Source of the DNA: Nereocystis luetkeana
Taxonomy: Eukaryota; Sar; Phaeophyceae; Laminariales; Laminariaceae
Length of the DNA stretch: 64,000 nucleotides
Assembly: GCA_031213475.1 (NCBI GenBank)
Contig: JARUPZ010000010.1
Location: 4,876,776-4,940,775 of the forward strand
Reading direction: 5' to 3'
The notes under the pieces were generated by a model. The model worked only from the letters and a program-made list of their open reading frames with translations. It was not told the DNA's origin and did no database searches. Made by a program: the position numbers and the translations under genes. Shown here one piece after another: positions 3,022 to 57,008 of the stretch; positions within the stretch are counted from its first letter, which is position 1; every line of letters starts with the position of its first letter.

Positions 3022-4933
<1,912 letters not shown>

Positions 4934-14875: not shown

Positions 14876-14990
14876 GCCCCGGTGGTTCAAGTGGTTAAAC
14901 TCGAATTCTACTTGTTTGAGTCCTGGGTTCGAGCCCCAGGTGGGTCGGACTTTGACTTTATTTGCAAAAATAAAAATAAAAAAAGGATTC
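14876..14990 (+). repeat. tRNA-derived SINE-like element inside the hAT-like transposon
   Basis: Positions 14876-14947 can fold as a degenerate tRNA. The D-stem is GGTT/AACT. The T-arm is CTGGG-TTCGAGC-CCCAG with a perfect 5-bp stem. The acceptor stem GCCCCGG/GTGGGTC is only partly paired. The pol III B-box reads GGTTCGAGCCC, and the A-box TGGTTCAAGTGG has one deviation. The anticodon loop lacks the usual T33. About 40 bases follow, ending in an A-rich tail (AAAAATAAAAATAAAAAAAGG). This is more like a short tRNA-headed SINE or tRNA pseudogene than a working tRNA gene. Confidence 0.6.
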
Positions 14991-30279: not shown

Positions 30280-31008
30280 CTATTGGGGCTGACGGGCCCA
30301 GAGACGCAGGAGGTTCCTCCCCCTGTTGGCTAAAAGTTGGGGAATCATGTCCCCGTACCTCTTCTTCATGTATGCGTTGCCCCTCGACTCAATGCTTTCC
30401 CCGCTTCAGCTTCAGCCTAACAATATGCCCCTTCTTGATCGCTTTGGCTAGCTTCCATCCCTCGCCATGAATATGTTCAAGCGTGTTTTCCCTTACCCTC
30501 CCCCCCCCGCCCTGGCCCGTATGGCTTGCTCCGTCTCCAACGAGATGCGTGGGCAATGGTCAAATGCTCAAGGCAAGCCAAAAAAGGCAAGTACCCCCCA
30601 ACCTTCCCACCCGTATGGCCAAAATAGGCGGGGAGTGCATCCCCCTTGGGATATTTTCCCACATAAAGTGTACCGGTTACGTCGGACCCAAAACGCACCG
30701 GACAGCTTCCCCCAGATCAGGACCCCCCCGGCGAGAAAAGATTGGCAACAAAAGTGCAGCCGCTAGTTGCAGCTGCTAATTGCTACCCCTCATTGCAACC
30801 CTTACAACAGCTCTAGCTCCTTTCTTCCGTTGCAACCCTCTTACCGCTCTCGGTTAACGTTGGCCATAGCAGCCAGGAGGCGCGCTCCGAGAGGAATGTC
30901 CTCCACCAGGGACGAACACTCGCCTACGTGGTTGTCCCCCCTCGCGAACTTGATCACCTGGAGGATTCGCCGCAACATATACGAAGTGGTAGGAAATTGA
31001 TTTACCAC

Positions 31009-31039
<31 letters not shown>

Positions 31040-34000
31040 GTCAGTACCGTTCCCTTGCGCACTGGTACCGCGGTGCGACGGGACATTTTGTACACTTGGT
31101 TTTCTTGCGTCGAGACGCTTTTCTGTAGCCCATACTTTGACCACGGCCGAGATTTCAAGGAAGTGAGCTATGTTGTGTGAGAACTTCATCCTCATCAACA
31201 ACATCACGACGGACGGGGGTGGGGAAAAGAGCAGGGTGGTAGGAAATAGGTAACCCCACGACTGCATCATACGTCGAAAACGAGCACGAACGTACGGAGC
31301 CGGGAGAATAAGGGGAACAGAGTGGGGGCGATAATTGCCTTGAAAGCCGGATAAAGAGCCGTTCTTTGTCGACGAGTCGTGGCCGGGGAGATACACAAAT
31401 GTTCCTAGCGACGGCGTTCGAGGGCGTTTCTGCTCAACAGCAGCCGCGGCGGCGACGGCGGCAGCGGAAGCGGCAGCAAAAGCGCAACAATCAGCAGCAG
31501 AAACACCAACAGCAACGACATCATCGCGTGATTCGTGGAGTTTACCCTAATATGTACCAGGTATGCAGCTTCAAAAAACATTCGAGACACATTAGCAACA
31601 CAAGCACTATCGGTACGTGTATGACAAGCGCGAGGGAGAAGCGTATGGGCCACCTTGTACCAACAATCCCTATTGCTGTCGTTCTGTGTTCTCACATTAA
31701 CTCATCGCCGTAATCTATTCAGTGATCACAAGCCAGACAGGAATCAAATAGTTATTGAGTGGCATAAAAAAGCCGAAGTCGTCATAAAAAGAAATCGATA
31801 AACGACCTGATGGGAATCACTCTCAGCGAACGAACAAACCGAAACAAAAATCAACGCCCGCCGTCGGGTGTATCATATGCAAACGCTGTGCGAATTGAAG
31901 CAGGACATTAACTAAACAATAAAGTGTACCTGGCTGGGAGCACCGACGCGCCCGCCTTCGAACGGGATTTCTACTCCAAACACCTTTTTCAGCATTCCGT
32001 CCGGCGCCTCCCTGAAAAAGACACGGGAGGGAGAAAGGAAAACACAAACGATGACATGCACGAGCAAAAACAAAAAAACGCAGTAACGCAGCAACAACAA
32101 CAACAACAACAACAAACAAGCAAATAAGCAAAGCACGAGAACAAAACAAACAAAAGCGAAGACGAGGAGGCGATGAAGCCTGAGGTCTAATCACATCACA
32201 CATTGGGAAATGAATAAAATGCTAAAACCAAAACGCTTCGTGTCTCTTGTAAAGGCATTTTCCGTGCATCACAGTCCCTCGGAGTCGGTTTGGCGCCCAC
32301 CATGAAAGGGAGGCCGCAAAACTCCTAGGGGATCCCCCTCTTCGCCGTCGCTTTCGCGGCGCGTTAAAATATTCGCCCGATGCGCTTGCCGACCGCTCTA
32401 TCACTACTCTATCGGGACATATATAGCAATCAGAACCAAATAGGTGGTCAAAACACAGGGGGATACGCGGTTTCTGGCTTCATCTAGGCTAAACACAGGG
32501 GGATACACGGTTTCGGCTTCATCTAGGGGTTCTGAATACTATCAATACTACGAATGGCCCGCCGTGATAGCTGCAACACACATCGGTCCGTCGGTAACCC
32601 TAACTGATCCATCAAAAAGGGCGCGTCGTCATAGGTCAGGAAAGGTCGGACTTTTTGTTTCGGTCTACGCCGTTCAATAAGCGGTCTGTCCATGCCTCTC
32701 GAAGGCGTACCCGCCGCCTTCCGTTTCAAGCTCGGGCAAGGGCCGGAGCGGATACGTCGAGAACGGGAATCACGGGTTGTCCTCGGGCGCATCAAACGCC
32801 GCAACCGATGTCTGGTCTAAAGTGTATCGTTGGGGAAATGAATCTATCGATAGGCTTTACGGATGACAACAGATGTAGAAACGCGCCAATCGTTAGTATC
32901 TACCGACGATAATAGACTCGTCCATTGCGTCACAAAGTACGGCATTGCGACTACAGTGGCCAATGTCTATTGCCCAGGGTATGCATAGTACAAACCAAGT
33001 GTGAAAATAGTATAGAAACAATTGAATCACTGTTCATGAGCGTGAACCCCCCCCCAACGGTATACTAACAATTACATGCTTCCAACCTGTTCGTTCCCAG
33101 CACGGAGTGCCAGCTATCGGATGACTACGGGGATGGCGAAACGGGAGGGCGGAAGAGCGCTCGTCGGACTATGCGACAGGCCGGCATCGTTCGGAGAAAT
33201 AGCCATCTTGGCTTGGTTGACGACAACAGCAAAAAAAACGAGTTTCGTTTACTCAACATCACAGCAACCCTGCCCGATCACTCTCTAAACAAACGAAAAT
33301 GAACAAACCACGAGGGAACCATCAACGCGCCTCCAAACCGCCTCCTTCCCTGTTCCCCCGCCACGCCACACCCCATACTACATACCCGGCGGGAACGATT
33401 CTCGCCCCAACCATCGCATTCCCTGAAACAAAAAACAAAAAAACAGATCGCGCGGTTGGGCGACAAAGGTCTTCAACGGTCACTGTAACGGCCATACAAC
33501 CCACAAAAAGGGTACCCACGGGATCCTTAGAACGGGTCCGCCTTTTCCAAAAGCATCAATAAGTTGTCGGGTTTAGTTGATACCTGGTATGGCATTACAG
33601 GCATGTCGGTCCCCCTCCCTCCCGTGTGATTCCACTCTTACGAAAAGGGATATATATACCTGGTACCAGGTATATTGCAGTGCTCCACCCCCTAACGCGA
33701 ACCCTAATCCCGCCTCTACCCTCCCATATAACGTGATTGGTCCAGCGGAATTCCGGCGAAAACACACAAATCTGAAAATAGAAACGATCGACTACATAAA
33801 ACAAATCACACCAGAACACGAACTCGTGAAAAGTCCCCAGTTACCTATACTTTATCCCCTATGTCAAGTCACCAATACGGACGAGGTTGCACCTGGTGCA
33901 AGGTATTTGCTTGAACGGCCCCCGATCCCGGTTTCAACATTATCGCACCCACCTCTCCCCATACATCTCTAGCTGCACCATGGGCGCGTCCGTGACGGCG

Positions 34001-36309
34001 TAGGCTCCGTTAGTCCTGTCCGCCATGAACGTACGGAACTTCTTCAGGTTGGACGACGTGTGAGGAACGTCCAAGGTTAGAACATACCCCACGTCGTCGA
34101 CGTACTCCCGATGCACCTTTCATTATTTCGGTCGCCCCACGGATGGCGCAGGGAGGGCAGGGGAGAGGGGGGAGGGGGCTACAACATGAGTTTTGAGCAG
34201 AAGATTGGGCTTTTAGGATCGAAACATGAACAGCGAGTACACCGGCGTCTTCGGCCAAGCCATCTACCTTGAAGGGTCGTGCGAGACCTGTCTGAAACGT
34301 CAAACATAATACACAATTCAGATACGTTGGGATTGGGGTATGCGAAAAACGAAATGAATTACATCAGGATTCGAAAATAATCTACCCATACTCCACTCAA
34401 GTCGTGCTTAGCCGTACGCGTATGGTCATAGACCCTCGCATCCCTACAATGACGAGACGGAGCGCGTCGGGGTTTCACCCACCAGGCCGACATTTCTTGC
34501 ACCGAGCGCGAAGCGTCGTGAGGTGAAGAGGGGGGGGGGGGGGGGTTATTAGTCGACGTTTTCTACTATCTATGGGTTCCAGCTGCACCTGAGAATGCTG
34601 TGGAGATTGTTCTAAATAGCGCGCCGAAACCATGACACGCAAACATCTCCTATTCTTTCGGTTTCTCACCAATGTCTTCTTCCCATTGGTCGACTTGACT
34701 CCCCACTGTCGCAGGGACCTCTTGTGAAGGGTCGCGAACCTCTCCGACACTACGAGGCACAGCCGCCTCTCTCCGACCGCCAGCGTTTTCCTGGGAGAAC
34801 ACAAACAAAACGAGCGGCGAAAAACGGAAACTGAGACACCAACACAAACACGTGCGAGGGCACGCGCAACGGGGGGGGCGGGGGGGGGGGGGGGGGGGTT
34901 GCAGCACATGACTGCTGACTACAATCCGTCATTCGCGTGCGTGTTTTAGGTGCTGTCGGTATTTACCCTACGGCGCTATCGTGGTTCTGTCGTGATGATA
35001 TCACGGTGCTACCACGGAGTTATGGTGACAGGGGTCCTGTCGGTGACGTGAAGAAAAGACAGAACCCATCTAGACAGCGATCAAAATCACACATAGGAGT
35101 GCACATGATATAGTACAGTTCAACTATATGGGCACCCGCATACACCCATAAGGACAGTTCAAGTATATGGGCACCCGCATACACCCAAAAGACAACATCA
35201 TACATAGCACGGCACCGGCACCGCTACGCAATCTGATTTGGTACCAAACACTGGTCGAGCACCATGCGCACACGTGCGCCTCAACCTGCCTCCTATAATA
35301 TACCTGGTATAGCCTGAAGGAACCCCCTTTCCCTCCCCGTGCGAAAAGGAATCTAAAAGCTTTCTAGAGGACCACATTATCACGTGAGAGAAAAACAAAG
35401 TATGTCGCCTTTGCATCATGAGCCGGTCGGTTCCAAGTATGCCCCAAGGATGTCAGACCAGAAAACCGGGAAAAGTAGAGTTGTCGCCCGCCCGCAAGAA
35501 CCAGGCCGAGGAAATGGGTCGTCCCATGTATAACTTGGGGCTTCTTCTCTCATTGTAAATATGCTCAAGTACCGATGCATATAGATTTTGGGGCTAGGGA
35601 CGGGTTGTACTCATACTTGATTAGTTTCGCACTAGAGGGAAGCGATATGGCGGCACTGCGTTTAGTTCTCTATCCGAGGGTATATAGCCAGGTATCACAG
35701 CTTCACAGGGTGACATGAAATCGTCGTGGGAGGGGGGCCGGAATACTGGATGGTCGGTCTGCTCCTATTAGCAGAAGGAAATGCGAACATAGAAGCAACC
35801 GACACAGCATAAACATACACGCACGTACAAACGCTGCCAATATGGAACACGCAACACGGAATGGATACCCAAAGCTAAAAACACGCGCATAGCAGAACAC
35901 GCACAGTACACAATACGCACGACAGAGGCATTATATAACATACAAATACGCCAGTACATATATACATATACACAACATCAAAACCCACACGAAACACGTA
36001 CAACACACTATGCACGCATAAACGCAACATATACCTGGTAGTGCAGTAGAACACAAAAACCGTAAGTACCTCAAGGTAGCGGGGGGGGGGGGGGAAGCTC
36101 CGTTCGCTTGCGTAATTTACAAGAGCAGGGATCGTCACTACGAAAAAACGGGTGCTTGCCGAACAAATAAGAAAACTCATCTCAAAAGACAAAATGCTGC
36201 AGGGGGATGCCGTACGCATCCTGTCATCGTACCAGGTACGTCAAAAGGTGAAGAGGAGAATTTACAACTACAAAACAGCTCCAGTGGGAGAAAGACGGGA
36301 GCGGGGGAG

Positions 36310-36354
<45 letters not shown>

Positions 36355-38203
36355 GTTGCAATCGTTTCTGTGAGGGTCCCAATACATGCAGAAAACTGCG
36401 TACGGCACGGACCTAGTCGGCTCCGTGTTGCTCCCATCGTCGGGATCTTCTGTCGCGTCCCTTGTTCTCCGGTCTCCGTTGGTCTTCTTGGTCACCGAAT
36501 ACACGAGTCCCACGATTGGGTCAGAAGCAGCCGCCGCGTCCTTGTCGTAGTACCCCTCCGCCTCGGACAACTCCTCCGACGCCCGTATCGACTCAGACAT
36601 GAGATCCGCCGTGCCTTCCAACGAAGTAGCAGCGGCAGCAGGAGGAGAAACAGCAGCAGCCTCGGTAGCAGCAGCAGCTGCATCAACGACTGTAGCAGGA
36701 TTTCGAACAGCAGCAGCAGCAGCAGCATCAACAGCACAAGCACCAGGGGCGCCGGAAGAGGCAGCAGAGGCAGCAGAGGCAGAAGCAGCCGCAGAAGCCG
36801 AGGCGGCTCCTCTGGCAAAGGCCTTCTCGATAACCTCAGCTGCGACCTGTCCCAAGCCGCCTTCGGTGCCCTCCGCCTCCCCGACCCAGCCTCCCGCACC
36901 GCCACCTACCACGCTCCCGGCGTCGACACGACTTTTCGCGTTGCCACCCACCCTCCCTCTTCCGCGCTTCTTCCCCTCTTCATTTTTTCTTCCGCTACCG
37001 TACACATCACCCCCGCTCCCCGCTCCCGCTCCCGCTCCCGCCTCCACACCTTCCCCTCCTTGTCGTTCTTCTCCTTCGCGGTTTGCTGGGGGGTCGGGGA
37101 GGGGAAGCCTAAGGTCGTTCATAAGGTTCCAGAGCTGGCTGGTGATGGCGTTAGGGCCGAGCCCCGCGCGGCTCGGGGTCTGGTAGACGTACTTGTAGAA
37201 CGGCCTAGAGGGCTGCAGGCTGATCTCCTTCATCCCCGGGTAGACTGCAGAAGTTTTTTTAATCGAATCGCGTGTGTTTTGTTTGGGGGGAGGGGGGGGG
37301 GGAATCGCCCGGCAAAACAGCACAGCCGAAGCGAAGAACAAGGGAACGGAGACATTCACAAAGTTACAACGGTATAATATAAGAAAAGCAACACGAAAAA
37401 ATAGTGTACTTGTGCGATAACTAAATGTGAGACGTTTTAGGGGGGGGGGGAGAGCATGAAACAACCCCCATCCCCTGAAAAACGTTTTCAATACGTTCAT
37501 ATTGAAAACCATAGACGAAAAACGAATAAAAGAGAGGAGGGGGATTGCCAGCTTGGCTCGGTTGTAGCACGGAGACCGTATCGGCGGGGGTTTGCTGGTG
37601 GGGTGAAGGCAAAAAAACAGAGGGGCGCCGCCAGGGGTCAGGGGCATGACATTGGGCTCTTGTGGGACCTGCGGCGCCCGTGTGGAAAAGGCAAAAACGA
37701 ATACAACACAGTACTGTTCATGTTGTGCTAGAATTACCGAGCTCACAAAACATGGAACGTGTGTGCTTTCAACCATTTTAGGGCTGCAGTCCCGTTTAGG
37801 GGACAGACTACTTGAGAATTTGAGTGGTTTGTCCCCAAAACGGGACTGAAGTCCTAAAAAGGGGTCAATGGACGAGCACCGCTTCAACACCATTTCCGTG
37901 TATACTGCGCGCGCTTAGTGCGAGTTTTCGTGGAACTTCAGGTGCAACACAGAACAAAAACAAAAAACAAAAACAAGAGAAGTTACTCAAGCGCCATCAT
38001 TTGAAATACGAAACCGCAGGCCTTCCCCCCCGCCCGCCCAGACACCCCCATCTGAATGTTTTTTGAGTCCCACCGCGGGGAAGGAGATCGCTGAGCTGGC
38101 TGGACGTGACGGCGTGGCCCTGGAGCAAAACCTCCATTGCTTTGCTCATGTCGGCCTGTTCCACAACATTCTTGTTTCTTTTGTCCGTCTTCAGTTTGAT
38201 CAG
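30280..38203 (-). CDS. Exons 19-25: helicase C-terminal extension of unknown function
   Basis: 38203-38074 reads LIKLKTDKRNKNVVEQAD and continues the helicase. 37244-36496 starts VYPGMKEISLQPSRPFYKYV, then becomes a Gly/Glu/Ala-rich linker, ending at GLVYS just before GTGACC. A 24-bp microexon (34291-34268, TGLARPFK) and 34116-33953 (VHREYVDDVGYVLTLDVPH, ending LEMYGE) follow. Then come 32011-31930 (REAPDGMLKKVFGVEIPFEG), 30957-30845 (VIKFARGDNHVGECSSLVED) and 30382-30280 (RGNAYMKKRYGDMIPQLLAN, ending WARQPQ-stop). Phases agree at every junction. I do not recognise the fold. It could be a new accessory domain or a diverged OB-like tail. Confidence 0.65.
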
Positions 38204-39768
38204 CTGCGCGGGAAGACCACGCACGCGAGTCAACCAAATGGGAAGCAGGGAGGGCGAGAGCTAGTCGATTTCACGACAAACGGGGGGGGGGTGGGAGGGT
38301 AGGGGGGGGTGCTCGATAGGAGAGATGTACACGATCTCATGCATGGTCGTAGTCGTAAGACCATAGACCCTCGCATCCGTACAATGCCGGGACGGAGCAC
38401 GTCGAGTTTTCACCGACCAGGCAGACATTGCTTGCACCAAGCGCGAAGCGCAGTGAGGTGTCCGGCGAGTCGAAACGCGGGGGGGGGGGGGGGGGGGGGG
38501 GGGGGCGGGGGGTCGTCCGGGAGATATAGAACACGAATAAATGGTGGACTTGCGTGCGTGTCGGTTACGACACGATGAGGCTTTTTGGTGTCTTCGGTTA
38601 ATCCTCAAAAGATATACATCGAAATCGGCGACTCTGTAGCCTGCTATATGTATCAGCCTCGCACATTTGCGTGAGTTATTCAGATTCAGCGACTGACGGC
38701 CCAACACATGAAATATATACCAGGTATCAAACTCCATCACTCATACTCAGCATCAGAACGGGTTCGCTCTTGCTGCCAAGTGCCATGCTAAACATATGGT
38801 GTATCTCCAGGCAAATAAACTGTGTCCCCCTCTTCCCCCTACCGAGATAACAAACAAGCGAACGTTTTTCAAGCGTTTTATTTTTGTCCACATGTACGTG
38901 CGCGTCCAGCTCTAGATTTGGTATCAGAGCCGTATCACATCGGACAGGGTACACACCAAGAATCAAGAAAAGAAAGGTGGATACGTAGCTTCGGTCGATC
39001 CGTCCCCACAGAGGGAATACGCTCCTTATTCAACCTTCAACGGGAAATGAGGGTGAGCCACTCATAGATACACGTATTCGTTTCAAAACCGCGGATCTCC
39101 CTGGGAAGCGGGAACCACTCACGTTTCTGGGGAAAGTCCATGCCAGCAGTAGCCTCAGAAGGTTGGCGAGATCAGGGTCGAACGTGGGGTCGCGCGGCAC
39201 GGTCGGTACCGGTTCGCCCGTGAGGACGGTTACACGCCTGTTGGTTTTGTGTAGATCACGAGCCGGGAAGGTCTATATCAGTAGTTGATCGTTGAAGGTC
39301 GGTGCTTTTTATCGATGCATGTCCCATAATCTGCTTAGTGCCTGGTACCTGGTAGATGACTAATGGTCGCACGATGGACAATTAAATCGCAACGATCAGT
39401 TGATCGTCCAGGCGGTGGTCGGTTACCGTGGCTTGAAACGTTCTGTTTCGTGATAAACGCAGGTGAGGAGTCGAAAAGTGCCTCGCTTGGGAAGGAAATT
39501 ACGGTCACGGCACGTGTGCGCAGACGAAAGTGAAACACGACCGAAAATGTTCGTCAGGTGCGCATGGCATCCATAAAAACAGGACAGCCGGCACCAGAAG
39601 AGCAACGGACAAGAAGCACGCCTGCCAAGTCTAAGCAAACATCACCTGAAAGCAACAACAACAACAAGAGCGGCAACAATAACGACAACACCACCCATAG
39701 CAACAGCAACGACAACAGCGACAACACAAACAGCAACACCAAGACTACAACCAACACCACGAGCAGCG

Positions 39769-39840
<72 letters not shown>

Positions 39841-45800: not shown

Positions 45801-47613
45801 ACAGCCCGCGCCACCTGCACCGCAAGGCTGTGCTGAACGGTCAAAACCTGAGGTCGGAAAAATGAACGGGGGGGGGGGGGGGCGTACTCATTTGATGCTT
45901 GCCTTAGTCAGTTGACCGTTGACCACGCATCCCTTTCGAGACGGAGCACCGTTTCTACTTCTAATAGAGACACTTTCACCACTTGGGCGCAATCTACGTT
46001 GTTTCCCATATTACGTACGTCGTGCACATAATTTGCTTTGTTAAATCTTATCCCCTTCCTATTTCGCCGCCTGTGGTCAGAAACAGATCATTATCGCAAT
46101 GCAAACGGGACGTTTGGAGGTGACACCAAGCAAGCTATTACCGGTGCACGACAAAGCCGGCGGCATGGTAGTCTAAGTGGTCAGCGACACCAGAGACAAA
46201 ATATTCGCCTCTAAAGAGTGTTGCTAACATTGAAAATGGGTTCAACATGTCGCCAGTTGGGGGAGAGGACGCAGAGGCGGCGATACTAAAGGCTGCAGAC
46301 AAGGCGCGGTTGCAGTGGAAAGTCCAACGAAATACGCTACACCCTTTGGCGCGTCGGCAAGCGGGAAACGGGCGGAGCAGGAGCGGGACACGAGGGCGAA
46401 ATAGGGGCAGATAAGCCAATCACCTTGCGGTGCGACAAGGTGCGACAAACTGCAAAGACTTCGTGTTTTTCTCCCGCAAGGTGGGACGTGATGCTTCCTT
46501 CGCCCGAACGCAAGGAGGGCGACGCTACAGCTGTCCTGTGTTTGAAAGAGTGTGGGCCCATGCGCGCTGCGGGGAGGGGGGGGGGGGGTCGGTTACCTGG
46601 GCATTCGGGGTGCTCTCGCCGCTACTGGTGGCTTGGACGAGGCTGCGGCAAGCTTTCCTCATGACCTGTCGGTAGCTCAGCTCGTCCGCCAGCTCGTCGA
46701 CGTACACTTCCCTGCAGATGGTGTGAAAAACACCACAAACCAATCAAATACGTAGGCACAAAAAAGTGAAAAAAGGGAACATGAGGATATTGTGCCATGT
46801 ACCCCGGTAGCGCAAAGCGGAAGCTCTCGCGCCAATCCAACTCTCAACGAACCATTTCTCGTAGAAGACCTACGTGACTCAAAAAAACATGTGGCCCTGT
46901 TTCGTCCTCGCCCGACCGCAGAATCGGAACGCCCCCCCCTCCCAGCACCGAGTACACCCCCCCCCCCCCTCCCAGCACCGTCTCCTCTCCCGGGGCCAAA
47001 TCTACAATACATTCGCATCGGTTCTCGAGCAGCAGAAGCAATGCTCCCTGCACCGAAGCATTTTACGTTATGCTCGCTTAACCCTTCAACGTCTAAATAC
47101 GGCAAAAGCTATCCCACTCTAATTACAAATGGTTTTCCCAGAAAAGCGTGCGTGCCGTCGTAAAAAAGGGGTTAATACAGCACTCCAAGGCCTGGGGGGG
47201 GGAATTACTTGGAATGAGAGAACGTGATTTCGGCAGTAGAGCCAAGAGTTGATCAAACCTCCCAAAAACAACATCGGAGTACCAGCACTTTAGTTCTCAA
47301 GAATCGTGCCGGCTTGGTTCTGTAGCGTGATGTTGCCCCCCCTCCCTCCACCTCCCCTGCCGTCTTACCTGATTGGAAAACGCTTCGAGCCGACGAAGAG
47401 AGGGAGCGTGCTCAGGCCGTAGTAGTTGCTCACCAGCCTCGCGGAGAGCGTTGCGCTCATGACGATCACGCGCAAGTCGGGGTGGGTGTCCATTAGCCTC
47501 TTGGCAAAGAAACAGAGAAGGTCCGTGTCCACGGAACGCTCGTGCACCTGCGTGGGGCCACATCGAGCAGGCGGGGAGCCAGGAAGATACAGTCAGTCAG
47601 ACAGTCAGTCAGT

Positions 47614-47659
<46 letters not shown>

Positions 47660-50411
47660 CACGGACGGACAGGCAGACAAGAGACACAAACGCGAGAAAC
47701 ATACAGGGACTGACAAACAAAGCCCGCGCGTGCAAATAAATTGAACCAACCATTGAACCAACGAACATAACGCCCAACCACACAACCACGCCTGCTTGCG
47801 TAACCCTCCCCCAAAGCCGCTGCCGCCGCGGCAGAATCCGCAGGAGCCCGCACACCCAAGTACCACCCACCCACCCACCCACCTCATCGATGATGAGATG
47901 CGTGTGAGAATCCAACAGCCCCGGGCTGTTCGCGATCAGCCTGACGATGTACCCCGTCGTGGCGAACGTCACCTCCGCCCCCCTAGGCCCCTCCCTCACG
48001 CCGTGCCCCAGCCGCATGGCCACGTTCCACTTGCCCCCGGATTCCTCCGCCTCCTCCCGTACACGCTGCGCGAGCGCGCGGGTCGCCGCGCGCCTCGGCT
48101 GGGAGACGAACATCTTCGCGCGACGCCCGCCCCGCGCCATGGCGTCCTCGACGAGCATGACCGGCAGCCGCGAGCTTTTCCCGCTCCCGGTCTCACCGTG
48201 GATGACCGTCACTCGATTGTTTCTGACATGCTCGAGGATCTTCTCTCGGTGAGCGTCGATCGGCAAGGTCAATGGCGGGCTCTGAGCACCCCCCCCCGGC
48301 CCCCCGCTGCTGTCGGCGACACCGTTCGCAGACCCCATCCCCGACCCCGCCCCCCCCTCCGCCTCCGCCCCCGCGACATCTTCCTCTAGTTCGCCGTCGC
48401 CCACCATCTCGGGCCTGGCGTTATCCGCTCGGTAATCGTTGAGGAGGGCGTGAAAGCTGGGCCCGTGAAAGTGATTGAGGGGCATCACGAGCGGCGGACG
48501 GGAAGGTCGGTCCGCGTTTTTCTCAGAAGAAACGCCATCGGGAGGGACCGGCGGGGAGACCGCCGCCGCCGCCGCCGCCGCATCTGAATCGTTGGCGGCG
48601 GCTGCAGCGGTGGCGGCGGCGGCGGAAGGGGTGGGAGGAGTGGAAGAGGAGGCGGAAGCAGCGGCGGCATCTTGGTCGAGGATACCCCGACTTCGGTACG
48701 CTTCCAAGAGGTTCTGCTGGTAGCGCATCGAGAGGAGGACATCTGCCCACTTAACCTGCAAGAAGGGGCGAGATTTTTACACAGTTCAAGCCAGCGAACG
48801 AGCGAGCGAGCGCGAAGAAGGGGGAGCGGGTGTACTCATGCCATGCATGGCCTCAGTCGTATTCCCATAGACCGTCGCATCCCCGCAATGCTGGGGGGAG
48901 GTAGGGGGGGGGGTACTCGATATCATGAATGGCCGTGGTTGTATGACCAAGACCCTCGCATCTCTACGATGCCGAGACGGAACACGTCGGGTTTTCACCG
49001 ACCAGGCAGACATTGCTTGCACCAAACACGAAGCGCCGTGAGGTGTTGAGCGAGTCGCATGGAGCTGCATCCTACTGAGACCGCTCGTGAGGCCGGCATG
49101 CAAAAAGATGACAGCGTCAACGAGTTTATTTATTTTCCGGTGTGGTCACTTCCAGATACAGAAATGGGGGTACTATGTAACTGCCTCGTGGAGGCCTTAC
49201 CATAACAAAACGTGACACGATAATCCCCTTGTGCGGATTAAAGGCTCTCCACCCCGCACAGACGATCTTCTGCAACTCGATAGCCAGCGTTGACCGGCCG
49301 GCAAAAACAACGATAAAAAAACGGCACCCCGGTTGACCAGCTCACGTAGAAGGCGGAATGAATTACAATGTCGTAGGCAACCGACGCCAACCCAACCTGT
49401 ATACATTAGGGGGGCGCCAAGCGACCAAAAACAACACTCTGCTTGCTAGCTTCGCCTGCCCACTTGCTGTGCCCTTCGGCAAAGAGGGTGCTGGTCGCCG
49501 ACTATCTGGCGGCCGAGAAAATCACGGCCGGCCCACAAAGAGCTAGCGCGTGCCAGGCGCCTACGGAATCCACACCAACAGCTGCGCGTGCACAATACGA
49601 GGCCAAAGCCGTTTAACGTTAAGCTTGTCCTTGTTCCCTCTCCCTCCCCCTCTCTTTACATCGGAGACAGCACCTCAGCCCCGGCCCCTTCCTTTCTCGC
49701 CCCTCACCCTCACGCCGTCGGGCAGCTCCATCCTCTTCCCGAGAGCGACGCCCCACAGCGCCGTCCGTCGCGCGCCGGCCTCGACGCGCTCGCCCTCTCG
49801 GCCGTCCTCCTCCCCCGCCCTCCACGCGCCGCTCCGACTCCAAACCCGCCCCCCTCCCCCCCCCGGGACGGCCTCCTCCTGGTCCACCGTCCGCTGCAGC
49901 GCCTCCAGGACGGCTTCCCCGAACGGCTTCGACAGCAGCTCCGACTGGAGCTCCGCCTCCACCACGTCCAACCTCGTGAGTGGCGGCGGCGCCGCCACTC
50001 TCGCCTGCTGCCCCCGTCGGACCCCTCTCCCGTGGTCACCGCCGAACCCACCCCCGCCGGCGAGCCCTTTGCGGGCGCCGCGCTTCTTCTTTAACCGCCT
50101 CGTGTGCCGGTTACCCCCGGCATCTCCTCCTCCTCCTCCTCCTCCTCTCCCTCCACTGGCGTCCTCCGCGCCCCGGCTCCGCAGCCCCGGGAGCCCTCCC
50201 CCAGCTTCCGCGGCGACGGCCTCGTCCTCCTCCTCCTCGGCCGGGTCGTCCGGGAATCCGTCCAGCGGCTCGAGCGCGTACAGCGCCCGGGAGAAGCTTA
50301 CCGCACGCTGGGCCGCCTCCAGCTCCTCGTGGCGCCGCGCCGCTTCCGTTTCCTCCTCTGCCCTTCCCTCCGCGGCTTCAGTCTCAACCGCCGCGAACGC
50401 GCCCTCCTCCA

Positions 50412-50444
<33 letters not shown>

Positions 50445-53400
50445 CTGCTGTCGCTGCTGCTGCCGCCCCCTCTCCCTCCCCCCCCCCGGCCCCCGCCGCC
50501 TCCACCCCCGCCCCTGCACCCCCGGCTACAGTCTTTCCTGCGCCGTTCACCTGTCCCGGCGTGTCCGCCCCCTCGCCAATCGGCAGCGTGAGCACTCCAT
50601 TCGAAGAAACCTTTGAATATCGTTCCGGCGAAGGGCCTTCCTTGCTATTCTCTTCTTCCGGGTACTCTTCCACTTCTGCGCCTTCTTCGGCTTCTTCGCT
50701 GTCATCGACGCTGCCACCGTTGCGGAACGGAGCAGGCCGTGGGGGAGGCCTGGCATCCACCCTGAAGCCGGGCCCCCGGGCCTGGATCCACTCGAGCGTC
50801 TGGGATGGGGGCGTACCACCAGGCCGTACATACAGGCGAAGGGGAGCGCGGAGGGTGGAGAGAGGAGTAAGGCGGAGACAGACGCGGTGGACACGGCTTA
50901 GCGGGAGGGGGGTAGGGGGTAACACCTGAGGGATGAAACATAAATCGGGAAGAAAGCGGCGACTACACGTAAACGCCGAGACCTCGCGAAATAACCCTCA
51001 GCACGCCGTTGAAGTTGTATCTCGTTCATTCCGTCCCGTTTGCCCCTCCGACCGCCCTCACTCCAACCACCCCCAACTCCCACCACATCGAACTCCCACC
51101 CCTCCAAACTTGCTTCTTGGCTCGCCTCAAAGGGGCAGACCGGTCTCACTCGCCAGAGGTCCCGCCGAAACACACACGCCTAAAACCCTCTTCGATAACG
51201 GCTCATCAATGGCTTTCAAATCAAGCAGCCAGGGGTATTAAAATCGCGTACTCTCGCAATACACCTCTTCTTGCGCCCCCCCCCCCCCCCCCCACCCTCT
51301 CGCCCCCCCGCTGCCCCCCCCCTCTCACTAGGCTCCCCTGCCCATCAACACCCCTACGCATTACTCTCCCATCTTAACTACCAGCGGTAATAACCTAACG
51401 AAATAAAAAACATGACCAGATATCTCCCCTCCCCATCCCCCGCCTGACCCCCAACCTCTCAAACTCCCCTCTCCCCTGTCCCCATCGTTCTTTTTCGCAA
51501 AAACGCCTCCACTTACCCTCTCAGGTCTTCCCTTGTTGCGCCCACTCACACCCAGGTGCCCAAACGACAAGTGACGCGTGTAATCGTTCCCCATGAATAT
51601 GGCCCATTCCACCACCTGGTCCTCGTCTATGCCGCAGAGCTCTGCCAGCCGCGGGCGAGTCCAGACGCGCGCCTCTACTCCGCCTCCTTCTTCCATCACC
51701 TGGCGGGCAAGGCGCGCGGGAAGTAGAAGAGAGGCATCGCGCATGGGGGGAGGGGCGGGGTGGGGGCATGCCCAAAATAAAAACCGAAAGCAAGGGTTTA
51801 GAAACGAAACACTAGAGAAACAAAATAACATATGTTGAAGTATGACATTTAGAGAGGGGAAAAACAACAACTACAGTAGCACGAGTCACGAGAGAAAAAA
51901 CGCTATGAGAGTGTTCGAACCCTAGTTGGCGGTGGCCTCAAGCTCGGCGTTTTTGTTGTTGTTACCTTCAGGCCACGGAAGTGGATGTAACGGCAGCGCT
52001 CGAAGATAAAGTAGTCGCTGTCGCCGCCCAAGGCGAACGTTCTCCCCGTCGGGTCTGCCGCGCTAGCTTTGGCAACCTCCTGGTCGGCCTCGCCAGTGCA
52101 CCTTCGCGGATTCGACGGGGTCGAGCAAAACGGGACGCCGTGATTGTTGCAACAACCGGCATCGACATCTCCCGGTTGCAGCCAGCACAGCAAGGCCGGG
52201 TGCTGCAAGACAGCACTGCATATCGAGAAAAAACGTCAACTAGTACGGGGGAGGAAAAAAGTAGATCAGAACAAAATATGTACGCTGTGCAAACATAGGG
52301 GATGCCTGGTACATGGTTTTGGGGTTCCTAAAAAGGGTGCTGGACACTATGGCCGACCCGTCATAGTAGTGGCTACGTACTGTAGTCGAGTGTTTCCGAA
52401 ACCAAAACAAACACTGTGATCAAACGCGCACCCCACTTCAGAGCAGGCGCCAGGTGCGTGATTCCTAACAGAAGCATATCACAGCAACATCAGTAGCACC
52501 ACAGACAACCTGCTAGATGGCAGGGCACAATACCCACGTGGGCCGAACAAAACTCGCAAAAGCAAAGCCCAAAACATCGTACGAAATCAAATCAAGTTGC
52601 AACGACGGAAAAGCTAGCTACCACATCAACACAAACCCCAAGAACCAAAAGCTCCAACGATCAAAAGCACGGAGTGTTGGAAAATCTTCTCGAGGCCCAC
52701 GTTGCCGACGCACAGTGGTGCTCCCGCTACTACGGGGAACCGTAGTAAATAGCACTAAATATCGTTAGTAAGAAAAGGGGAAAATACAGGATTTTGTGTG
52801 TACCGTAGGTCCTATTTACTATGGTCCCCCGCAGTAAGAGTCGGCATGCGCGCAACACACTGTTCACGAATTCTCCCATAAAACAACTACGATTTGATAC
52901 AACCGAACAGAACGGCAGAGCGAGTTTGATTTTTCAAGACGAGCGCTGATGCTTGCGTGCGTATCCCCGGTCGCCAAAAGTCGGGCAAACGGTTTCGAAC
53001 AACTCTACTGTCTGAGCACCGGGTATTCTACGAAAGGCATAAAATCTACCGCGGGTTTGATCCAATAATGCACAGCCATTTTATGCTTCCTACAACAGAA
53101 ACAAAAAAACTCAACTACAAGCAGTAACAAAAAACAGCGTCATGTCAGAGTGGGCAGTAGAGAGCAGCGTCCGTAACTCACTCGACCACCTTCACCCCTG
53201 AGGAGCGCAGCGACGCGTAGAACTGCGCGCCCGCCATCTTGGGAGCGGGGAAAGAGTTAACGCTGCGGTCGGGCCCCACCCCCGCGCCCACGAACGCGCC
53301 CCCGCCATCCAGAGTGTACCCGTACAGCCGAGCGAAACTCTCGGCGACGTTCTCCCTCCGATGCTCTCTCGTCACGGCCTTCATCTTGCGGCTGCGGCCG

Positions 53401-56400
53401 TCCTTGAATACTAAGAGGGAAAGCCCCGCCTGAGGCATTCCCATTTCAAGTAGGGGAGGGGTGGGGTTCAACGTGTTGAAGGGTTGATGCGTTAACGCGT
53501 TCACCCTCTTGGAACTTTAGGGGGGGGGGGGGACGGGGAGGGAGAGGAGGGGTTTCAATACGCTAACGCATTTACCCTCGGGGGGTTTTTGGTGAGGGGA
53601 GACGAGGGGTTTCAATGTGTTGGCGTGCTGATGCGGTGACGTGTTCACCATCGGGGGGCTCTAGGGGGGGGGGAAAGGGATAACAAGAAGGGGACGGCGG
53701 GGGCATCAGGCATCGCCCATACGAAGCAACTCGGGCTGCTCTGGGTAGGGCACTAAACGTTTTTTGTGTCCGCACCGTAGTGCAAGGACTTTGGATAGCG
53801 GTTGCGCGACAACGTTTTTTTGGTCCGCACCATGCTGCTGTTGCGCAACCACACTACAAATAATAATAATAATAATATACTACTATCAGACACTATCTGA
53901 GTCCCAAAAGCTTTACCAGTACAGTATAGAAACCGCCATCTCGTGTCGAGAACAATCTACCTGGAACTAATGGGTATATATCATGCCGCACGTATCCTTC
54001 GGGTGTTCCCAGGACCAAGAGAAGGAGACGGTAGATAGCTTACGGTTTCGCCTGCCAACTCGAGACAGCTCGCGTCACATACTTACGTTCTGTGAATGAA
54101 CACAGGTGAAATCACGCTACGACGAAAAAAGGGTAGGGTGGTTGCGAAACACAGGAAACATCATTATTTCCCCCTGATACCAAGAAACTGATACACCCCC
54201 CGCCCCCTCCCATTCTCTCACACTCGTAGCTTCTAGCTACTCACCTGGCGGAGTCGTGAGACCTCGCGCACGACTGCTTCATGGAGAAGGTCGTAGTCCC
54301 CGCCGTGGTCGACGCGTTGGCCTTCCAAGAGTTGGAACACCCACCCCGACCCGTCGATTGCTAGTGTATCGCCCTGACGATGAACAACAATCACAAAAAA
54401 AAACAGCAATGCCGAATCGTAAGGGACGTACGAGACATGCACCAAACATAAGTTCCAGAGCTGGACGTGCACTCCGCCACTAACAGGTTTACTCATGTCA
54501 TGGTTGGTTCGAATGGGGCTGTTGGGATTCGGCTTGCTCTGAATGGCTGTTGAGTTTCGACTTGCATTGATTGGCTGTTTGCTTGTCGGCCTTTGATTGA
54601 CCTTGTTTTTTTGGTCGTCGCCTTCTTGGCATTGATGTGTTTGGATCAATCAGCGTATGCCCTTTCAAGTCGGAGTTTGTCAGGTCGGCAGTTCCTTCCA
54701 TTGGATCATCCGGATTCGGGTCTATTCATCCCGTTTGCTGGCCTCTCTCCTCAGCACGATCCAGCTCGTTGAACCCTCACCACGTGCCCGAACACGTTGA
54801 TCGGTTGCGACGCTTAGCCTGTGGTGAGTTGGCTGACGCCACCGGTTCAATGAACCAACATCATCCGTCACGCCCGTACCGTCTACCACTTAAACCGTTT
54901 AGGACTGCACTCTCGTTTTGGGCACAACTTACTTGGGATTAGAGTTGGATAGGTGTGTCTGTGCACTGCGGCACTAAATAGGGTTAAAACAACACAAACC
55001 CTGGGATGGGGTGATTTTCAGAGCCACTGTTCTCCAGAACAAGAGGGTCAAACACGACGAAGATCGCGGGTATGGAGAGAACCTCGATCGTCGAGATTTT
55101 TCCATAGACGCGTCGCTCGGCATTTGCACGCTCATCGTTGTGGGGAAAACCAGCTTTGAAAATAGTCCGAGGGGGGGTGTGATATCTTGCGTGCTATACA
55201 TACGGTGCACAGCTGCGTCATGCAGACAGGAAAACAAAACCGGCAGGAAAAAATAGGCCAACTTGATTGATACAAGTACTTTTTTAAGTAGCTTGCCCCC
55301 AAAGACGCGCAATATGGAGGAGCACCTTGGGACGGCTGGGAAGGCTGACAACCGAACGGATCACGCCGTCCCTTTAAAGCGGTTGGAGAATTTACCAAGA
55401 AGGTCGAATAGCAATGCACGACTTTGTTTGCGCACGCACTGACAGCCTGTCTCCTCTCCATATACAGTAGCATACCAGGTACCAGTACATATACTACTAC
55501 TTTAAGTCCCAGGTACCTCAGGTCAAAGAGCAATGCACGACTCTGTCTGCGCGCGTACTGACATCCTATCTGCTCCCGATGTATCATATGGTACCAGGTA
55601 CCTACCAGGTACCTACCAGGTACCTACCAGGTACCTACCAGGTACCTACCAGGTACCTACCAGGTACCTACCAGGTACCTACCAGGTACCTACCAGGTAC
55701 CTACCAGGTACCTACCAGGTACCTACCAGGTACCTACCAGGTACCTACCAGGTACCTACCAGGTACCTACCAGGTACCTACCAGGTACCTACCAGGTACC
55801 TACCAGGTACCTACCAGGTACCTACCAGGTACCTACCAGGTACCTACCAGGTACCTACCAGGTACCTACCAGGTACCTACCAGGTACCTACCAGGTACCT
55901 ACCAGGAGTTCTGAAGCCTCGCTTCATACTTGGAACCAGGTATGTGCCTACGACTAAGAGCGTCGTCTCCGGTGTTGTGATACTGTTGTTGCAGTGCGGT
56001 ATAGCAGTGCTGGCATCCGCTCCCCACAGCCCACAAGCGGCTTCGTCTCTCTTCTACCGATACAGGTTCTATACCCATACCATGTACGTACTATATGCGA
56101 GTTTCATAAGCTCGTACTGTTCTGTACTATTAATAGGTTATATACGTATTACCGTATCAGACTAGGGTGATAAGATAACACACCCCCTAGGACGATTTTC
56201 AAGGCTGGGTTTCTCGACAACGGGGAGGGGCGTACTGAGTACGACAACCGATGCATCTATGCAACCTTCTCGACGAAATATTTCCAAAGCCACCATTTCC
56301 CTCTCTGCGTGCCCCTCATGTTTTGGAGGAAACCGGGCACGAAAATCGTCCCAGGGTGTGTTAGCTTGCGTGCTAATTAGCTAATTAGTACCAGGTACGT

Positions 56401-57008
56401 CCACGTTTACGAACCGCGAATGGATTATGCACCTCCAACTGCTTGCAGCATGACTTTTAGCGGTGCATGTGTGGTATCGACACATGCGTGTACATGATAC
56501 AGCAGCAGGTGGAGTCAGCCGCTCACAGACCATGTATATCATGACCGTGCAATACCATAACCAGGCACTGCTGCTCCTAATAAACGAGCTCCCGGTTCCT
56601 GGTACATGGACGGTACGTGCAATCCTGAGAGGTGATGGAACTTGTGCGTGCTGAATGCTCAAGGTTTGTTGCAGCTCGTCCATTCTGAGACGTCTGTATC
56701 TGCTGCAGCTATATCAACATGGAGTTGACTTTTGTTTGCAGGTGTTTGTAGAGCCTGGAGGTACAGGGCTTGGTATTCAACACGTATCCTCAACCTAGCC
56801 CATAGTTATGTATATGGCGTCCGCTTATCGACAGCCGCATCTCGGATGCATACGATAGGCGGGTTGGGTGATGTAGGGCATTCGCCACGCATTGTACTGC
56901 TGCTGTTGCCCGTTGCTGTACTCGTATTCGTACCTCTCGAAGATGCTCGATGGGTGCCGCCGCCCTCAAGTTCTGGTCCACATAACTCGTTAGCCCTTTC
57001 ACTCCCAT
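30280..57008 (-). CDS. XPG/asteroid-like PIN nuclease fused to a DEVH-box helicase (model of about 25 exons)
   Basis: Transcript-order exons: 57008-56934, 54373-54245, 53429-53182, 52101-51966, 51699-51517, 50925-49708, 49269-49201, 48755-47883, 47547-47369, 46711-46597, 45847-45695, 45242-45081, 44320-44238, 43643-43475, 42768-42613, 41136-40990, 40097 to about 39890, about 39251-39123, 38203-38074, 37244-36496, 34291-34268, 34116-33953, 32011-31930, 30957-30845, 30382-30280 (stop TAG). Every junction except the one between 39.9 and 39.25 kb has GT-AG ends and matching phase. The start is ATG in MGVKGLTSYVD, the standard XPG-family N-terminus. Residues 1-257 hold the nuclease domain, roughly 258-690 a low-complexity linker, 860-1450 the helicase core, and the rest an unassigned tail. 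Total about 1,900 residues. The weakest link between the two halves is the 69-bp exon at 49201-49269. If it is wrong, this is two genes: 49.67-57.0 kb and 30.28 to about 48.8 kb. Confidence 0.7.
31011..31040. repeat. Poly-C tract in an intron of the nuclease-helicase gene
   Basis: About 29 consecutive C residues starting at 31011, 50 bases upstream (in transcript sense) of the 30957-30845 exon. Similar runs of 10 or more occur near 22370, 34530, 34880, 36080, 38480, 42520, 42828, 45870, 51278 and 60843. Confidence 0.85.
32452..32526. repeat. Two-copy tandem repeat (~38 bp)
   Basis: AAACACAGGGGGATACGCGG then TTTCTGGCTTCATCTAGGCT is followed by AAACACAGGGGGATACACGG then TTTCGGCTTCATCTAGGGG. 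It is intronic in the nuclease-helicase model. Confidence 0.85.
34405..34546 (+). repeat. Poly-C/G-ended dispersed repeat, partial copy
   Basis: Contains GTATGGTCATAGACCCTCGC, GACGGAGCGCGTCGGGGTTT and GCGCGAAGCGTCGTGAGGTG, ending beside a G run at 34530-34543. Intronic. Confidence 0.75.
35116..35192. repeat. Two-copy tandem repeat (~46 bp)
   Basis: AGTTCAACTATATGGGCACC then CGCATACACCCATAAGGAC is followed by AGTTCAAGTATATGGGCACC then CGCATACACCCAAAAGACA. Intronic. Confidence 0.85.
36311..36354. repeat. (GCT)n microsatellite
   Basis: About 14 GCT/TGC triplets. It extends the minus-strand frame past the likely end of exon 20 at 36496 as poly-Ala, but the model places it in the following intron. 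Confidence 0.9.
37776..37859. mobile_element. MITE family B, intact copy
   Basis: 84 bp with inverted ends: TTTTAGGGCTGCAGTCCCGT then TTAGGGGACA, against TGTCCCCAAAACGGGACTGA then AGTCCTAAAA. It lies in the intron between exons at 38203-38074 and 37244-36496. A half-copy (GTTTAGGACTGCACTCTCGT then TTTGGGCACA) occurs at 54895-54935. Confidence 0.8.
38283..38513 (+). repeat. Poly-G/C-bounded dispersed repeat, near-complete copy
   Basis: G run, then GCTCGATAGGAGAGATGTAC, CATGCATGGTCGTAGTCGTA, AGACCATAGACCCTCGCATC, GACGGAGCACGTCGAGTTTT, CCAGGCAGACATTGCTTGCA, GCGCGAAGCGCAGTGAGGTG and a second G run of about 24. Intronic between helicase exons. Confidence 0.85.
39123..41136 (-). CDS. Exons 16-18: helicase HA2/ratchet region
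   Basis: 41136-40990 reads VALGARLGIVSEAVAIAAVL followed by TPFHRASHLVHG, the usual HA2 block after the winged helix. 40097 to about 39890 reads GMYSDTFAALRVLREYM and FCRVFSLSYPRMEQLAASA, the ratchet-like helices. 39251-39123 ends LLRLLLAWTFPRN, close to the conserved Leu-Leu...Phe-Pro segment that precedes the C-terminal domain in DEAH/HrpB-type helicases. The donor of the middle exon is unclear because the frame runs into a (GTT)n tract. A phase-2 junction would be needed to meet the ACAG|GCGT acceptor, or a small exon is missing. Confidence 0.7.
39774..39842. repeat. (AAC)n microsatellite
   Basis: About 23 AAC triplets preceded by an imperfect AAC/GAC-rich stretch from 39650. It abuts the unresolved end of the 40097 exon. 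Confidence 0.95.
41200..41355. repeat. Purine-rich tandem repeat with GGTACCAGTACG ends
   Basis: Two copies of CAGCT(C/A)C.GTAC.TGGTACCAGTACG (41204 and 41325) are separated by GGAAAAGGAAAACGAAACAG-type repeats. Intronic. Confidence 0.65.
42412..42548 (-). repeat. Poly-C-ended dispersed repeat, minus-oriented copy
   Basis: GTCGGTGAAAACCCGACATG, CGTCCCGGCATTGTAGGGAT, GAGGGTCTATGGTCATACGA, CTACGGCCATGCGTGAGATC, GAGTACATCTCTCCTATCGA, GTAC and then about 28 C. In this orientation the poly-C is a 3' tail. Intronic. Confidence 0.85.
42613..47547 (-). CDS. Exons 9-15: DEVH-box RNA/DNA helicase core (motifs II-VI, winged helix/HA2)
   Basis: 47547-47369 completes DEVH and gives motif III as MSATLSARL. 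46711-46597 continues FPIREVYVDELADELSY. 45847-45695 has VLVFVPGMASILAIMDLFEL (motif IV). 45242-45081 has PFHSELP and VVVATNSAESSITLPDV (motif V). 44320-44238 with 43643-43475 forms QRAGRTGRVRPG (intact motif VI) followed by VYKLYS. 42768-42613 is the winged-helix/HA2 start (LESLHAMGFIS, ILTDTGRFASGL). All ATPase and nucleic-acid motifs are intact, which places it in the DEAH/RHA group of 3'-5' helicases. Introns hold poly-G/C repeats, an (ACCAT)n array and a CAGA array. Residues needed for NTP hydrolysis are present, so the enzyme should be active. Confidence 0.92.
42824..43060 (+). repeat. Poly-G-started dispersed repeat, long copy
   Basis: G run then CACTCATATCATGCATGGCC, GTAGTCGTATAACCATAGAC and the shared body, continuing past GCGCCGTGAGGTG into TTGCATCCTACGAAGAACCG and GTGGATGACAGCGTC. 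The last two blocks are shared with the 48826-49125 copy. Intronic. Confidence 0.85.
44493..44707. repeat. (ACCAT)n pentanucleotide array
   Basis: About 40 pentamers, mostly TACCA/CCATA with ATGCC variants, in an intron of the helicase part. The tyrosine/tryptophan-rich frames it creates on the minus strand are artefacts of the repeat. Confidence 0.95.
45867..45965 (+). repeat. Poly-G-started dispersed repeat, diverged partial copy
   Basis: G run then CGTACTCATTTGATGCTTGC, CTTAGTCAGTTGACCGTTGA and TCGAGACGGAGCACC. It is recognisable only by order of blocks. It sits about 20 bp from the 45847 exon border. Confidence 0.55.
47618..47660. repeat. (CAGA)n microsatellite
   Basis: About ten CAGA units next to imperfect CAGT copies, intronic between helicase exons 8 and 9. 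Confidence 0.95.
47883..48755 (-). CDS. Exon 8: asteroid-like tail plus helicase motifs I-II
   Basis: The exon opens after CTTGCAG with VKWADVLLSMRYQQNLLEAY, then an Ala-rich spacer and MPLNHFHGPSFHALLNDYRA. The W-x-D...YQ and FH-x-x-FHALL pattern is, as I recall, typical of asteroid-protein C-termini rather than helicases. The RecA-1 domain follows: Walker A GETGSGKS (about residue 873), motif Ia SQPRRAATRALAQRV, TTGYIVRL (motif Ib region), and IIDE at the exon end, completed as DEVH by the next exon. It carries both nuclease-family and helicase-family signatures in one exon and so supports the fusion independently of exon 7. Confidence 0.85.
48826..49125 (+). repeat. Dispersed repeat, tandem double copy
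   Basis: A short first copy (GTACTCATGCCATGCATGGC, then CATAGACCGTCGCATCCCCG) is followed by a G-rich spacer and a long second copy from about 48914, running to GATGACAGCGTC at 49119. It fills the intron between exons 7 and 8. Confidence 0.85.
49201..49269 (-). CDS. Exon 7: 69-bp bridging exon between nuclease and helicase parts
   Basis: After CGAGTTGCAG it reads KIVCAGWRAFNPHKG then IIVSRFVM, with donor ATG|GTAAGG. Both ends are phase 0, matching exon 6 and exon 8. It has no start codon of its own, so it either joins the upstream exons or belongs to a longer 5' exon starting at another acceptor. This short exon decides whether the gene is a fusion. Confidence 0.5.
49708..50925 (-). CDS. Exon 6: asteroid C-terminal region and low-complexity linker
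   Basis: A 406-codon exon after CCTCAG. It begins with a Pro/Leu/Arg-rich stretch, then TLEWIQARGPGFRVDA, which fits the segment following the XPG-I domain in asteroid proteins. An acidic DDSEEAEEGAEVEEYPEEEN patch, Ala/Gly runs, and VSFSRALYALEPLDGFPDDP follow, then the helical ELQSELLSKPFGEAVLEALQ. The frame hits a TGA at about 49672. A good donor precedes it at GGCGTGAGG|GTGAGG (exon end 49708), in phase with the exon at 49269-49201. Using the TGA instead would end a stand-alone asteroid gene here. The long opposite-strand frame over the same stretch is a GC-skew shadow. Confidence 0.7.
51517..57008 (-). CDS. Exons 1-5: asteroid-type XPG/PIN nuclease domain
   Basis: Exon 1 (57008-56934) encodes MGVKGLTSYVD at the N-terminus. 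Exon 2 (54373-54245) has GDTLAIDGSGWVFQLL, where D32 is the first metal-binding Asp of the XPG-N region, and HGGDYDLLHEAV as in asteroid proteins. Exon 3 (53429-53182) ends just before exon 4's CTGEADQEVAK (E155, D157) and GGDSDYFIF (D178, D180), the XPG-I acidic cluster. Exon 5 (51699-51517) has FMGNDYTRHL (D235). These residues are those used by FEN1/XPG-type nucleases to bind metal, so catalytic competence is plausible. The short DNA-contacting helical insert of FEN1 is not evident, and the GNDYT form together with the HGGDY block points to the asteroid branch. That branch is poorly characterised biochemically. Introns of 0.3-2.6 kb separate the exons; intron 3 contains MITE-A copy 5 and intron 1 the large 11-bp array. 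Confidence 0.8.
52737..52838. mobile_element. MITE family A, copy 5
   Basis: Begins CTACTACGGGGAACCGTAGT and ends CCTATTTACTATGGTCCCCC then GCAGTAAG. It is the most diverged copy and lies in intron 3 of the nuclease-helicase gene. Confidence 0.8.
53440..53675. repeat. ~85-bp minisatellite, three diverged units
   Basis: Each unit has GGGGTT(C/T)CAA, then GCG(T)TAACGCGTTCACC or a variant, then CTC(G)GGGG..TTTAGGGGGGGGG. It is immediately upstream (transcript sense) of exon 3 at 53429, so it lies next to the acceptor. Confidence 0.75.
55402..55602. repeat. Tandem duplication leading into the 11-bp array
   Basis: AGCAATGCACGACTTTGTTT at 55410 and AGCAATGCACGACTCTGTCT at 55528, each followed by GCGC(A/G)CG.ACTGACA.CCT.TCT and then a TACCAGGTACC word. 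Only the second copy expanded into the long array. Confidence 0.8.
55590..55906. repeat. 11-bp tandem array (TACCAGGTACC)n, about 29 copies
   Basis: The unit TACCAGGTACC repeats almost perfectly to TACCAGGAGTT. Viewed otherwise it is the 8-bp palindrome AGGTACCT separated by ACC. Because 33 bp is 11 codons it is open in all plus frames (YQVPTRYLPGT), which is not evidence of a gene. It lies in intron 1 of the nuclease-helicase gene. Confidence 0.95.
56176..56363. mobile_element. Small TIR element (family C)
   Basis: 188 bp with inverted ends: TAACACACCCCCTAGGACGA then TTTTC, and the complement TAACACACCCTGGGACGATT then TTC. A related half (TTTGAAAATAGTCCGAGGGG then GGGTGTGATA) occurs at 55155-55186, and both are followed by CTTGCGTGCTA. 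No reading frame. It lies in intron 1. Confidence 0.7.

Follow-up and report, generated by a model that had tools for sequence, protein, structure and literature searches.

Exons of an asteroid-type XPG/PIN nuclease and an RHA-type DEVH helicase that appear to encode one polypeptide in Nereocystis luetkeana

Do the nuclease signatures and the helicase signatures that follow one another along the minus strand of this locus belong to a single polypeptide, or to two neighbouring genes? In the window, by which we mean the whole 64,000-nucleotide stretch analysed here (N count 0), 24 minus-strand exons between 57,008 and 30,280 can be spliced to give 1,951 codons in one open frame. Judged from its sequence, the locus is likely to be one gene, predicted to encode an enzyme of about 1,950 residues with several domains: first an asteroid-type XPG/PIN nuclease, then a low-complexity linker, an RHA/DHX29-36-type DEVH helicase and an added tail.

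The gene model and its surroundings

Counting its stop, the spliced chain has 5,856 bases; it opens with an ATG at 57,008, closes with a TAG at 30282-30280 and has 0 internal stops. Its exons (Table 1) were assembled by eye, guided by protein signatures and splice signals, with stop-to-stop frames also inspected, in a reading of the minus strand from 57,600 to 28,400, and then checked by script. The junctions are in phase at 23 of 23 positions; since exon edges were picked for fitting phases, this agreement is a consistency check, neither independent evidence nor proof. The 3' end of H13 was placed by frame (one base shorter breaks the tail frame) and is uncertain.

Table 1. Exons of the model, the disputed intron and the rival signals within it, with positions in the window and the basis of each
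Feature	Position	Strand	Basis
E1, nuclease start MGVKGL	56934..57008	-	XPG_N matches residues 1-96
E2, LAIDGSGW and GGDYD	54245..54373	-	exon chain, motifs
E3, VFKDG; weak acceptor (51.5th percentile)	53182..53429	-	exon chain, splice score
E4, GEAD and GDSD	51966..52215	-	exon chain, motifs
E5, GNDYT	51517..51699	-	exon chain, motifs
E6, mostly low-complexity, ending in ALGKRMELPDGVR	49708..50799	-	coding score (bits per codon) +0.33 in frame 0, against +0.11 and -0.06 in the remaining frames
Intron 6, site of the disputed join, with dispersed repeat	48756..49707	-	coding score below zero in the six frames
H1, possible remnant of an asteroid C-terminus, linker, helicase motifs I, Ia, Ib and start of II	47883..48755	-	one open frame; acceptor at 99.5th percentile
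H2, remainder of DEVH box, SAT	47369..47547	-	exon chain, motifs
H3	46597..46711	-	exon chain
H4, LVFVPG (motif IV)	45695..45847	-	exon chain, motifs
H5, ATNSAESSIT (motif V)	45081..45242	-	exon chain, motifs
H6, start of motif VI	44238..44320	-	exon chain, motifs
H7, end of motif VI	43475..43643	-	exon chain, motifs
H8, winged-helix/HA2 region	42613..42768	-	HA2_N 12.5 bits, cut-off 21, E 0.17
H9, HA2 ratchet region	40990..41136	-	HA2_C 19.4 bits, cut-off 21.3
H10, GC donor	39916..40097	-	exon chain, splice score
H11	39123..39237	-	exon chain
H12	38074..38203	-	exon chain
H13, long Ala/Ser-rich stretch, uncertain end	36413..37244	-	frame used: +0.09 bits per codon overall
T1, tail	34670..34790	-	exon chain, coding score
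T2, tail, poor acceptor	33953..34116	-	exon chain, splice and coding score
T3, tail	31930..32011	-	exon chain, coding score
T4, tail	30845..30957	-	exon chain, coding score
T5, tail, stop codon; poor acceptor, weak coding score	30280..30382	-	exon chain, splice and coding score
Rival start: ATG (49203-49201) abutting a donor, first base 49200	49200..49203	-	separate-helicase reading, M/VKWADV
Rival: possible extra exon, strong acceptor (99.0th percentile) to the 49200 donor	49201..49505	-	splice signals

Splice-site percentiles were computed with the site in question left out of training, unless noted. On this scale the acceptors of E3 (51.5), H6 (63.7), H10 (75.8), H13 (72.3) and, in the tail, T1 (78.7), T2 (39.6) and T5 (41.1) fall below the 80th percentile, and the donors of H5 (84.6) and T3 (81.0) below the 85th. 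The H10 donor is apparently GC (GAG/GCGAGT, 39910-39918, minus strand). Codon usage was scored with a model for which 16 other exons served as the training set, E6 and H1 being left outside; taken whole, these two score +0.33 and +0.31 bits per codon, and codon-position GC is uneven in both. Could so long a reading have arisen by chance, with the nuclease or the helicase half a decayed pseudogene? The long, repeat-rich introns and some weak splice sites would fit, but 1,951 codons free of internal stops, intact motifs and a retained codon-position bias make this very improbable indeed.

The preliminary description had the protein end at a stop after a new tail. In the model the chain ends at the TAG given above; the tail leading to it is tentative, with the T2 and T5 acceptors as low as just listed. 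Coding scores are +0.23 to +0.37 bits per codon for T1-T4 and +0.05 for T5. Neither Pfam (best row DUF7125, E 0.01, 15.4 bits, cut-off 29.1) nor the PDB (best E 0.85) offers a convincing match to the tail, and a T2-T5 query (E up to 10) found 4 places in the alga's own genome, all of them its own exons, with no second copy. A possible 37-bp tail exon near 33.4 kb, looked at by eye, was left out since it breaks the phase. Downstream of the gene lie two coding-like segments on the minus strand (28542-28697 and 28912-29109), either a separate gene or further exons, without a Pfam match.

The introns and flanks hold features of their own. Intron 1 contains a perfect 11-bp tandem array of TACCAGGTACC at 55592-55906 (28.6 copies), and a dispersed repeat of about 120-150 bp occurs in four introns (34402-34525; 38275-38424; 42406-42555, inverted; 48922-49045, in intron 6), its copies adjoining poly-C/G runs as judged by eye. 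Elsewhere in the window there are fragmented plus-strand frames with DSGA-like and YVDD motifs at about 4700-9200, resembling by eye a decayed copia-type retrotransposon; an array of CAG-type triplets, about 142 copies long (3547-3974); and a minus-strand reading frame that stays open for 814 codons and scores as coding-like (23331-25772), one 150-residue stretch of which had no Pfam match above cut-off. ARAGORN places a tRNA-Val gene at 14875-14948 on the plus strand; Rfam, run over the whole window at the gathering score, gave 0 matches, for this tRNA-Val as for the rest.

The two enzymatic halves

XPG-family signatures had been described in six exons joining in phase; those located, in the in-phase exons E1-E5, are MGVKGL (57008-56991), LAIDGSGW (54364-54341), GGDYD (54304-54290), VFKDG (53411-53397), TGEADQ (52097-52080), LGGDSDYFIF (52031-52002) and MGNDYT (51594-51577). 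The expected acidic residues (D, D, an E/D pair, D-x-D, D) occur in order in LAIDG, FKDG, GEAD, GDSD and GNDYT, at what we take to be the catalytic positions of the XPG family. Pfam XPG_N (PF00752) matches residues 1-96 with 31.8 bits (cut-off 22, E 2e-7). XPG_I and XPG_I_2 are absent from the Pfam search (E up to 10), in which HMMER filters may drop weak matches; the lack of a match to an XPG internal domain model suggests that the nuclease has diverged. Its solved relatives in the PDB are Rad2 and XPG, weakly (best E 0.007), and the NCBIfam models for FEN1 (E 0.008) and Rad2 (E 0.05) both match far below their cut-offs.

For the asteroid family, the comparison sequence was a hand-typed human ASTE1 (679 residues), used as a one-sequence BLASTP database with composition correction and masking off. 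Residues 1-96 match it at E 3e-4, and GGDYD, presumably a mark of the asteroid family, is common to both; the pieces around EAD/DSD (E 4.4) and GND (E 2.5) are weaker. The name asteroid-type is thereby supported by the N-terminus and this motif, rather than by a dedicated family model. Searches of the alga's own genome covered 465 Mb in 1,987 contigs, exon by exon, with only the best candidates scored. Queried with residues 1-323 of the nuclease (E up to 10), the genome gave 7 places, namely the nuclease's own 6 exons and one weak match at E 0.65; a second asteroid-like gene, or a processed copy showing splicing, was not detected in this exon-by-exon search.

The later exons carry, in order, HGETGSGKS, SQPRRAA, TTGYI, DEVHERS, MSATL, LVFVPG, ATNSAESSIT and MQRAGRTGR, bearing out the full DEAH/RHA motif set of the preliminary description. 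The Pfam models DEAD (PF00270; 41 bits, cut-off 26) and Helicase_C (PF00271; 47.8 bits, cut-off 23.5) both score above threshold. In the PDB, 70 distinct sequences match (E up to 0.001); of the 60 listed, the best solved relative is DHX29 (E 9e-68), then MLE and DHX36. The helicase box is DEVH, the same as in the aligned DHX29. The HrpA and HrpB models match at E 1e-60, yet far below their equivalog cut-offs. Both HA2 models stay under their Pfam cut-offs (Table 1), and the region aligns to DHX29 throughout; an OB-fold, for which Pfam listed nothing with E up to 10 over model residues 1-1533 plus the tail, may be diverged. An H1 query of the own genome (E up to 0.001) returned two other matches, which look like different DEAH-type helicases (loops GETGSGKST and GETGCGKST). 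Single-sequence structure prediction of H1 alone reached a mean pLDDT of 39.4 and was not used.

The join between nuclease and helicase

In the preliminary description the two halves met through a separate 69-bp exon. Our guess is that this was 48755-48687; it is probably instead the start of an 873-bp open exon, H1 (48,755-47,883), extending into the first helicase domain, and because the frame is already open at 48,776, no intron is needed behind the supposed exon. Within H1 the coding score of 48755-48270 is +0.21 bits per codon overall, made up unevenly: +0.06 at 48755-48684, +0.06 at 48683-48495 (a stretch rich in alanine, serine and proline) and +0.39 at 48494-48399. There may be an optional intron in the first part of 48755-48270.

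Is H1 spliced to E6? It lacks a start codon at its beginning, opening at TCTCGCCCCTTCTTGCAG/GT, and its acceptor (48755), left out of training, is among the strongest in the region, so strong that H1 is probably an internal exon; that it begins at such an acceptor and not at a start codon favours one transcript. The first in-frame ATG of H1 is at 48,728, so that a start within H1 is also possible. The 952 bp of intron 6 upstream have coding scores between -0.20 and -0.28 bits per codon across the six frames, and their codon-position GC is flat (0.55-0.57). The E6 donor and the H1 acceptor are both phase 0, an agreement expected by chance one time in three. A model trained on E1-H12, and therefore on both sites, ranks the E6 donor (49707) first among donors in 50,799-48,756 and the H1 acceptor first among acceptors in 49,707-48,200; the E6 donor stands at the 99.3rd percentile when included in training and at the 93.7th when left out.

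The same 952 bp hold the signals of a different arrangement, two neighbouring genes on the same strand: a nuclease ending at the TGA at 49,677-49,675 or in some other exon of intron 6, and a helicase whose first exon, somewhere in 49.6-48.8 kb, is spliced to 48,755. The nuclease frame meets that TGA just 10 codons beyond the E6 donor, which would give a protein of about 670 residues, close to the typed ASTE1. The donor at 49,200 follows directly on an ATG, and the two joined to H1 would read MVKWADVLLSM, in phase; never trained on, this donor is at the 97.2nd percentile of GT sites, in a model slightly different from the left-out one used for E6. The acceptors at 49505 (99.0th percentile) and 49581 (96.2nd) are strong enough that other splicing is possible, an exon at 49,505-49,201 spliced after E6 would stop the nuclease frame, the same interval might instead contain a 5' exon belonging to a helicase gene, and there is an AATAAA at 49,134. 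On the other hand, the first exon of the helicase would code for a single ATG codon in a stretch that is negative in six frames, and the phase shared by the E6 donor and H1 would be a one-in-three coincidence. The dispersed repeat, shared with later introns, fits intron 6 as an intron and also an intergenic spacer. All in all we consider two genes unlikely, though by some distance short of negligible.

The two sets of splice signals might also serve one gene that makes the fused protein together with separate nuclease or helicase products, through alternative ends or starts. Both sets are present, as predicted signals, and we hold this to be rather improbable; it overlaps with the single-gene explanation and its share is counted there. 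Of the single polypeptide first proposed, then, both halves and the phase-matched junction are borne out, the strong H1 acceptor favours one transcript, and the claim is qualified by the possible separate start exon of the helicase at the ATG and 49,200 donor.

Two further lines contribute little to the choice. A join that rebuilt the C-terminal half of an asteroid protein was considered and set aside as evidence, the similarity not being significant: the 52 residues across the join align best at residues 530-559 of the typed ASTE1, and 676 of 2,000 shuffles score as high, while three other junction queries aligned elsewhere (shuffles as high: H1 start, 552/2,000; FHG segment, 891/2,000; both together, 479/2,000). 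No relatives of H1, the nuclease or the helicase core were found in viral contigs, nor of the nuclease or the helicase core in prokaryotic genome contigs, by a method able to detect close relatives only. Given these collections and this method, missing homologues say little.

A putative motor-nuclease and its known relatives

Assuming the single-gene explanation, how might the enzyme act? The chain E1-T5 would be transcribed as a single transcript. Helicases of the DHX29/36 type move 3' to 5' and open structure, and the helicase part would presumably do likewise on RNA or DNA, exposing a single strand at a structured site; the tethered nuclease could then cut the exposed single strand or overhang. 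Such cutting would serve repair or RNA processing, with DNA or RNA as substrate. That one polypeptide would both unwind and cut we infer from the families of its two halves. We put at about an even chance a fuller proposal: an enzyme encoded by a single copy, whose DHX29/36-like helicase is covalently linked to the sole asteroid-type XPG nuclease found in the genome, the motor thus feeding its own structure-specific nuclease.

If the fusion is true, it would suggest a general partnership between ASTE1-class nucleases and RHA-type helicases. A natural fusion to a named type of helicase is a "Rosetta stone" clue, and this one would predict that stand-alone proteins of the ASTE1/FAM120/Mkt1 group work with an RHA-type helicase. 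Among the open PMC papers listed in the literature searches, a scope outside of which subscription papers lie, no title or abstract opening mentions an asteroid-DEAH fusion.

Each half has recognizable relatives. The likeness to ASTE1/asteroid lies in the MG(V/I)(K/R)GL start, IDG and GGDYD; to our knowledge, ASTE1 has no helicase domain. With DHX29, DHX36 and MLE, both RecA domains and the region that follows align, and DEVH occurs in DHX29 as well. The tail of the present gene, which lacks a convincing match, sets it apart from these helicases, none of which we know to carry an XPG nuclease. ASTE1 reportedly cleaves 3' single-stranded overhangs and is recruited by shieldin (PMC12599495), and ASTE1/ast is tabulated among nucleases (PMC11574390). 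Mkt1 and its proposed ASTE1/FAM120 relatives are presented as a group of XPG relatives about which little is understood; in contrast to the protein predicted here, no helicase domain is mentioned for Mkt1 or the FAM120 proteins in the passages cited (PMC12345631).

Helicase-nuclease fusions, with motor and nuclease in one polypeptide, include Hef, Dicer, DNA2, Cas3 and PhoH2, which differ from the present case in drawing on other nuclease and helicase families. If the fusion is true, it would join the helicase-nuclease fusions as a new pairing rather than as a system of a new kind.
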